8,771 nucleotides of DNA, taken from NCBI GenBank assembly GCA_021161465.1, contig JAGHAM010000022.1, positions 1-8,771 of the forward strand. The letters are read 5' to 3'. Source of the DNA: Candidatus Iainarchaeum sp. (GTDB lineage: Archaea > B1Sed10-29 > WALL01 > JAGHAM01). The translations under genes and the position numbers were made by a program. Positions 5,641 through 7,056 of the stretch are shown one piece after another. How positions within the stretch are numbered: position 1 is the first letter of the stretch; every line of letters starts with the position of its first letter. The notes beneath the pieces were generated by a model that had not been told where the DNA came from, ran no database searches, and saw only the letters and a list, made by a program, of their open reading frames with translations.

Positions 5641-6009
5641 TTACTTGTTTTTTTCCTGTGATAGGAGAGAGGGTAAATCCTCAAAATGGACAAGACCAAG
5701 AATCTTCCTGAACCTTTTTCGGTACGAAAGATTGGGTCTAACTGCCTCATTAAAGAAAAGGTCTTTCAGCTTCTTAGCAGCTTTTTCCCCAAAAGAGTCA
5801 AAGTCTGTTAGTATGATTGCTTCCCTGCAGCTGCAGGCGATTTTCTCTACTAGTTCATTCATCGAAGTTGAAGACAAGGTTAAAACCAACCCGTCAAGAC
5901 CGCTTTGGCGAAGCGCGCTGCGGTCATTTTTGCCCTCAACCACGACTGGAATGCCTTCATCCATATCAAGTTGAAGGTCCGATAGTAATTTGGTTACCTT
6001 CTCGTTCAT
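5641..6009 (-). CDS. Small TOPRIM-domain protein (UPF0292 type)
   Basis: This is a 122-residue stand-alone TOPRIM protein. The family signature is clear: Glu25 in PVVVEGKNDRSAL, then the acidic pair Asp69/Asp71 in AIILTDFDSFG, the metal-binding residues of the fold. The C-terminus (about 88-122) is basic and resembles small archaeal TOPRIM proteins related to ribonuclease M5 and primase TOPRIM domains. Their activity is not established, although a nuclease or nucleic-acid role is a fair guess. An in-frame stop lies two codons before the ATG, fixing the start. A GTGAT about 13 nt upstream is the only ribosome-binding candidate. It precedes dnaG by 12 nt, so two TOPRIM proteins are made together. 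Confidence 0.85.
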   Translation of the reverse strand: MNEKVTKLLSDLQLDMDEGIPVVVEGKNDRSALRQSGLDGLVLTLSSTSMNELVEKIACSCREAIILTDFDSFGEKAAKKLKDLFFNEAVRPNLSYRKRFRKILGLVHFEDLPSLLSQEKNK

Positions 6010-6076: not shown

Positions 6077-6200
6077 TGTTGCCCCGCTGTAACCCTTTAT
6101 GTCATAGCTCCTCGGAAGCTCACAAAGGTGACTCGCGGGGCTGTACTGTGCCTTGTTGACAAAGGCTTCATCGTTGCCTCTGCTTGTCACCCAGACACAG
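6077..6200 (-). ncRNA. Predicted two-hairpin box H/ACA guide RNA
   Basis: Two consecutive minus-strand hairpins share one architecture: a 7-bp lower stem, a 6+6-nt pocket, an upper stem, one spacer base after the lower stem, then ACA. Hairpin II: GCCCCGC (6141-6135) pairs with GCGGGGC (6087-6081). The pocket arms are GAGTCA (6134-6129) and GTTACA (6093-6088). Upper stem CCTTTGTG (6128-6121) pairs with CATAAAGG (6101-6094), and ACA is at 6079-6077. The distance from upper stem to ACA is 14 nt, the known rule for H/ACA guides. Hairpin I: CTGTGTC (6200-6194) pairs with GGCACAG (6152-6146), pocket TGGGTG and CAACAA, ACA at 6144-6142, again 14 nt. Its upper stem, ACAA/TTGT with a bulge then AGGC/GCCT, is weaker. 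Pocket II is complementary to helix 69 of 23S rRNA. The GA/TGA bases near 6120 and 6103 suggest an L7Ae kink-turn but do not fit the consensus exactly. Confidence 0.8.
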
Positions 6201-6224: not shown

Positions 6225-6232
6225 TTTATAAA
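6225..6232 (-). promoter_or_regulatory. TATA box for the H/ACA RNA
   Basis: TTTATAAA on the minus strand, preceded by an A-rich AAAAC, is the best TATA match in the 250-nt gap. A start about 25 nt downstream falls near 6203, only a few bases before the first stem of hairpin I (6200). This placement independently supports an RNA gene beginning there rather than a translated message. Confidence 0.65.
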
Positions 6233-6258: not shown

Positions 6259-7056
6259 TTAAGAACGAGCCAGATACTTTGCAATATCTGTCTTTGTAAA
6301 CATGCCCTTAATCTCTGACCCATCAGATACAACAAGGCTACCTATGTGTTTCTCCAGCATGATTCTCCCCGCCTTCGCTGCATCCGTCTCTGGTGTTGTG
6401 GTGTACACCTGATCCCTCATTACTTCACCAACTGTGATGGGCTGTATTTGTATATCTTCCCTAAGAGCTAGAGGTGCAGGGTCCTGCCTACCTGCCACTT
6501 TCACTTTAGGTGAAGCAAAAGACACATCCTTCATGCTCAGTACACCAATTATATCAGAATCAAGCACCACCAGCCTGTTTACGCCTTCCTCTTTCATCTT
6601 CCTTATGGCATGAAAGATAGAGTGCTGCGCTCTCACCGTTCTGATGTTCCTGTCCATTATGTCTCCAACCTTAACTTTACCCGAATAATTCGAAACAAAA
6701 TAATCAAGCAGGTTTGTCTTGGTCACTATCCCCAATGGCTCATTCTCAAGAACCAGTGCAGACTTTGTATGCTTCTCTAAGAGTTCCCTGGCAATGTCTT
6801 CTGGAATTGCATCAGGACTCACAGAAGTTACATTTCGGTTCATAACCTTACTAACTGGAAATTCATCTATGGGTTCTCTTGCTTGGTAGAAAGCATCAGC
6901 AATCTCTGGCTCTCCAACCATACCAATGGGTTTCATTTCACTCAGGACAGGTACCGAGCTTATATCGTGTTTTAAAAATAAGTTCCTTACCCTTGCTATG
7001 CTATCATTCGGGGTTACATAGTAAACCGGGCTTGTCATAATGTCATAAGCTCTCAT
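6259..7056 (-). CDS. Protein with four CBS domains
   Basis: This 265-residue protein is built almost wholly of CBS domains, which usually bind adenosyl nucleotides or S-adenosyl compounds and act as energy or ligand sensors. Four repeats are visible, each opening with an [M]-T/S-x-x-V/T pattern: MRAYDIMTSPVYYV (1-55), VSKVMNRNVTSV (66-120), VGDIMDRNIRTV (about 124-178) and VGEVMRDQVYTT (about 207-263). No catalytic domain accompanies them, so a regulatory or partner-binding role is inferred. The open frame extends to 7104, but ATG 7056 is chosen because GGGAGGGATG ends a few bases upstream. It then starts 4 nt after the neighbouring CBS gene's stop. Confidence 0.88.
   Translation of the reverse strand: MRAYDIMTSPVYYVTPNDSIARVRNLFLKHDISSVPVLSEMKPIGMVGEPEIADAFYQAREPIDEFPVSKVMNRNVTSVSPDAIPEDIARELLEKHTKSALVLENEPLGIVTKTNLLDYFVSNYSGKVKVGDIMDRNIRTVRAQHSIFHAIRKMKEEGVNRLVVLDSDIIGVLSMKDVSFASPKVKVAGRQDPAPLALREDIQIQPITVGEVMRDQVYTTTPETDAAKAGRIMLEKHIGSLVVSDGSEIKGMFTKTDIAKYLARS

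Follow-up and report, generated by a model that had tools for sequence, protein, structure and literature searches.

Archaeal box H/ACA guide RNAs place their ACA box 14–16 nt from the pair that closes the pseudouridylation pocket (PMC4652768). Among those already described, HgcG (Pab40) of the Thermococcales has three hairpins, of which the third, Pa40.3, targets L2016 and the other two target L2588 and L1932 (PMC4652768). The A. fulgidus RNA Af4 carries three motifs, with Af4.3 acting on the helix 69 (H69) site L1970 and Af4.2b on L2601 (PMC4652768); the remaining motif is for 16S rRNA (S1167). Nanoarchaeum equitans expresses a single H/ACA sRNA of 159 nt, with two hairpins that each contain a K-turn and with an ACA hinge (PMC3491384). 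In yeast, snR191 serves the H69 sites 25S 2258 and 2260, and snR10 serves 25S 2923, beside Um2921/Gm2922 (PMC8307265). Both the two-hairpin form and guidance to H69 have archaeal precedents, and the RNA described here is a new member of this known class. It resembles the N. equitans sRNA in its two-hairpin layout, a likeness of architecture, and differs from Af4 in having two hairpins rather than three motifs. We propose, with high confidence, that it is a two-hairpin H/ACA sRNA made from its own promoter that guides pseudouridylation of the 23S uridines equivalent to E. coli U1915 in H69 and U2554 in the A-loop, based on structure, conservation, covariation, target complementarity and guide–target co-change.

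The gene lies in the window (the whole 8771 bp stretch of DNA analysed) between a CBS-domain gene ending at 6259 and a TOPRIM gene starting at 6009, both on the same strand as the RNA; the gap, given as 250 nt in the initial annotation, measures 249 nt (Table 1). That annotation had also described two adjacent hairpins with the same architecture and a TATA box, and every one of these features is present: in both hairpins a 7 bp lower stem leads into a 6+6 pocket, and one spacer base precedes the ACA (ANA) box. The distance from pocket to ACA is 14 nt in both hairpins, here and in all ten copies of the RNA.

Table 1 Coordinates of the H/ACA guide RNA gene and its parts in the window
Feature	Position	Strand	Basis
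Two-hairpin box H/ACA guide RNA	6077..6200	-	Fold z, descriptor scan, covariance-model matches, covariation
TATA box TTTATAAA, 32 nt ahead of first stem	6225..6232	-	Sequence; distance conserved in relatives
Hairpin 1, predicted A-loop guide	6146..6200	-	Fold and target scoring
Hairpin 1 lower stem, 7 bp	6200-6194 with 6152-6146	-	Sequence/fold
Hairpin 1 pocket, 5' guide UGGGUG (predicted partner CACCCA of 23S)	6188..6193	-	Target scoring
Hairpin 1 pocket, 3' guide CAACAA (CAAC with GUUG of 23S, predicted)	6153..6158	-	Target scoring
UGA of putative L7Ae K-loop, hairpin 1	6168..6170	-	UGA in 9 of 10 copies
ACA box 1	6142..6144	-	Kept in 10 of 10 copies
Hairpin 2, predicted helix 69 guide, HgcG hairpin-3-like	6081..6141	-	Rfam match and target scoring
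Hairpin 2 lower stem, 7 bp	6141-6135 with 6087-6081	-	Sequence/fold
Hairpin 2 pocket, 5' guide GAGUCA (predicted partner UGACUC of 23S)	6129..6134	-	Target scoring
Hairpin 2 pocket, 3' guide GUUACA (GUUAC with GUAAC of 23S, predicted)	6088..6093	-	Target scoring
UGA of putative hairpin 2 K-turn (5' GA at 6121-6120)	6102..6104	-	UGA in 10 of 10 copies
ACA box 2	6077..6079	-	ACA in 9 copies, AUA in G001

RNAfold, one of the checks suggested in the initial annotation, gave a minimum free energy of −55.5 kcal/mol (z −4.95), equalled by none of 200 shuffles. A strict descriptor (7 bp lower stem and a 5–7 plus 6 pocket, then an upper stem, a UGA, a single spacer base and ACA) matched both strands of the 8771 bp exactly twice, at the two adjacent hairpins, while 100 shuffled windows gave a mean of 0.08 matches and never a tandem pair. 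The UGA of hairpin 2 lies 10 nt from the pocket in nine copies and 11 nt in one; that of hairpin 1, present in all copies except G005, lies 10–11 nt away. Such spacing is consistent with the approximately ten layers between the pocket and a K-turn or K-loop bound by L7Ae. The unconstrained fold of hairpin 1 has an 8 bp lower stem and a 3+3 loop and closes part of the pocket, so the 6+6 form would represent a target-bound reading.

A blastn search of 61 genomes returned six partial matches, all from the same order, and recovered only part of the relatives; a covariance model was required for the rest. Trained on six copies (that of the window and five of the blastn matches), the model found the RNA in ten of the order's 11 genomes, with E values of 1e-14 or lower throughout and four of the matches outside the training set. 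The sole genome of the order without a match is 61% complete, and no match was obtained in eight other genomes of the class. Conservation spans four families and extends to the surroundings of the gene: nine copies follow CBS-domain genes, the contig of the tenth is too short to show CBS and has TOPRIM and DnaG downstream, and TOPRIM follows the RNA wherever the contig extends far enough. All ten copies have a TATA-like box at nearly constant distance, about 28–33 nt ahead of the first stem.

In the ten-copy alignment fitted to the covariance model (A6), 97.7% of cells are paired, compared with 83.5% in column shuffles and 38–48% when the partner is slid, and 13 of the 22 stem pairs show double-sided changes. 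A MAFFT alignment (A5) agrees (98.5% paired; double changes in 11 of 22 pairs), and the independent RNAalifold prediction contains these two hairpins as well, with double changes in 20 of its 30 pairs. The stems compensate in relatives, which the initial annotation had suggested examining, and the loss of ACA boxes, stems and covariation that it had named as evidence against a guide RNA was looked for and not found. Chance or degenerate hairpins with no function have a negligible probability: the fold and descriptor shuffles speak against them, as does conservation across four families, and the covariation refutes them. It is also very unlikely that there is no separate sRNA and that the hairpins belong to a TOPRIM–DnaG operon, as its structured 5' leader or as a terminator. 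The RNA does lie on the same strand as TOPRIM, whose start follows 67 nt downstream, and no terminator was recognised after the RNA; however, in most relatives that start is about 300 nt further downstream, and a leader would have no need for two ACA boxes, for pockets with rRNA complementarity or for guide bases that change in step with the rRNA.

For the H/ACA guide, targets were scored at 1133 uridines, on the genome's own 23S and 16S rRNAs retrieved via Rfam families. The partner of hairpin 2 is GUAAC-U-C-UGACUC, in helix 69 of 23S rRNA (5+6 bp), and that of hairpin 1 is GUUG-U-U-CACCCA, in the A-loop (4+6 bp). Both sites rank first among the 1133 uridines, with scores of 27 (hairpin 2) and 26 (hairpin 1) against 15.5 for the next site in each case, and both rank first in all six genomes scored (the host and five others with usable 23S), where the bipartite complementarity around an unpaired UN is likewise present for both hairpins. 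Of 400 shuffled guides, one reached the observed score of hairpin 2 and none that of hairpin 1. The weak points are the 3' duplex of hairpin 1, which is just 4 bp, and the narrowing of its pocket in the free fold; in G001 hairpin 2 ends in AUA in place of ACA and its 3' duplex is 4 bp.

Judged from these pairings, the target of hairpin 2 would be the equivalent of E. coli U1915 and that of hairpin 1, by the 14 nt rule, the equivalent of U2554; neighbouring archaeal modifications are recorded at 1915/1917 and 2552/2553 (PMC2584109). Hairpin 1 of the same RNA could conceivably act on the adjacent uridine, E. coli U2555, through a 5+5 pocket, since conserved GAC/GUC pairs could close the pocket one base earlier, placing ACAA opposite UUGU and UGGGU opposite ACCCA (pairings read from the sequence and left unscored by the script). 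This register is improbable: the first base of the 3' guide would go unpaired, and CAAC, which stands exactly 14 nt before the ACA in all ten copies, would lose that spacing, whereas the U2554 register yields ten pairs at the top-ranked site. The A-loop pseudouridine of yeast, 25S 2923 made with snR10, also lies at the 2554 equivalent (PMC8307265).

With U2554 retained as the predicted target of hairpin 1, the strongest evidence that the two pockets would act on the H69 and A-loop sites is the joint change of guide and target. The H69 target reads UGACUC in G000 (the host genome), G001, G004 and G009, where the opposite guide base is A, and UGACCC in G002 and G006, where it is G, so that the guide base tracks its target in six of six genomes. 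At the A-loop, most genomes have CACCC and the guide GGGUG, while G004 has CACCU and AGGUG. In G005 the guide GGAUG implied CAUCC; the 23S fragment, read afterwards, has CAUCC, making the blind prediction correct. Over both sites, three positions show such a joint change, one of them predicted beforehand.

HgcG (RF00064) is the sole meaningful match in Rfam at E values up to 10; Histone3, mir-143 and other matches were dismissed as chance. The RNA is not a formal member of RF00064, because it scores 25.1 bits here and at most 42.1 bits in relatives against a gathering cut-off of 77. The HgcG model nevertheless matches the same loci in relatives, down to E 1e-10, and in the reverse direction the new covariance model recovers genuine HgcG genes, those of G045 and G025. 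Hairpin 2 is related to hairpin 3 of HgcG/Pab40: both have the 3' guide GUUAC, 14 nt from ACA, and the best 23S match of the HgcG third hairpin in G045 and G023 is the same H69 uridine, in agreement with the assignment of L2016 to Pa40.3 (PMC4652768). The remainder of the RNA differs, with two hairpins in place of three and the H69 hairpin preceded by a predicted A-loop guide. Hairpin 1 has no HgcG counterpart by guide sequence; hairpin 1 of HgcG was considered as an A-loop guide and rejected, its hand-read pocket failing to select the A-loop. Hairpins like hairpin 2 also occur alone in other archaea (G030, G052).

The eukaryotic RNAs snR191/U19 and snR10 cover the same two rRNA places, with separate RNAs for H69 and the A-loop where a single RNA would serve both regions here. 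A weak match (E 3e-4) was obtained between the Rfam model SNORA74 (U19) and hairpin 2 of L033. L2601 and L1970, the Af4 sites, are 631 nt apart, and the distance from H69 to the A-loop is 627–636 nt in five genomes examined here; this spacing suggests that L2601 is an A-loop site, so Af4.2b may guide the same region and joint coverage of H69 and the A-loop may not be new. It is conceivable, though somewhat short of probable, that this RNA, which would join H69 (1915) and the A-loop (2554) in one two-hairpin molecule, is specific to the lineage, and that no earlier archaeal guide has been described for the A-loop pseudouridine which eukaryotes make with snR10.

The genome itself encodes Cbf5 (E 1e-95) and Nop10 (E 1e-17), as do most relatives. 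The identification of an archaeal H/ACA layout in the initial annotation is borne out by structure, covariation, synteny, promoter conservation, rRNA targets, co-change, the HgcG match and the presence of Cbf5 and Nop10. In the proposed mechanism, the TATA promoter would drive a dedicated gene for an sRNA of approximately 125 nt, each hairpin of which would assemble with Cbf5, Nop10, Gar1 and L7Ae into an RNP; hairpin 2 would then direct pseudouridylation of the U1915 equivalent in helix 69, and hairpin 1 that of the U2554 equivalent in the A-loop (helix 92). With this RNA, a little-known archaeal order gains a well supported guide that had gone unannotated, and two pseudouridines are predicted to the exact base, at sites of the large subunit that contact tRNA and are also modified by H/ACA RNAs in eukaryotes. 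Rfam at its cut-offs misses the RNA, so the annotation of genomes like these probably overlooks further guide RNAs, and the combination of model and target logic used here would find them.

Several other features of these loci were seen. The approximately 300 nt between the RNA and the TOPRIM start in L033, L034, L035, L037, L038, L040 and L042 has room for a short ORF, DUF167/YggU-like by eye, that is absent in the window and in G001. The 23S fragment of G005 (L066) starts right at UGACCCUCUUAAGG in helix 69, beside the hairpin 2 target, possibly at an intron or a contig break, and the 23S of G002 (L050) runs into unrelated sequence soon after the hairpin 1 target, which suggests that an intron or a break in the assembly lies next to the A-loop. 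The genome's own 16S gene (L032 1501-3636, G000:C33) is 2136 nt long against a model of 1478 positions. Its insert, which falls between the regions of E. coli positions 1100 and 1492, contains a 139-residue ORF (GGLFDAEGW...) that looks like a LAGLIDADG homing endonuclease, and the insert is therefore probably an archaeal rRNA intron. Close to the 23S gene, the rRNA contig also carries a gene for an archaeal RNase P RNA (L031 476-758; 97.2 bits).
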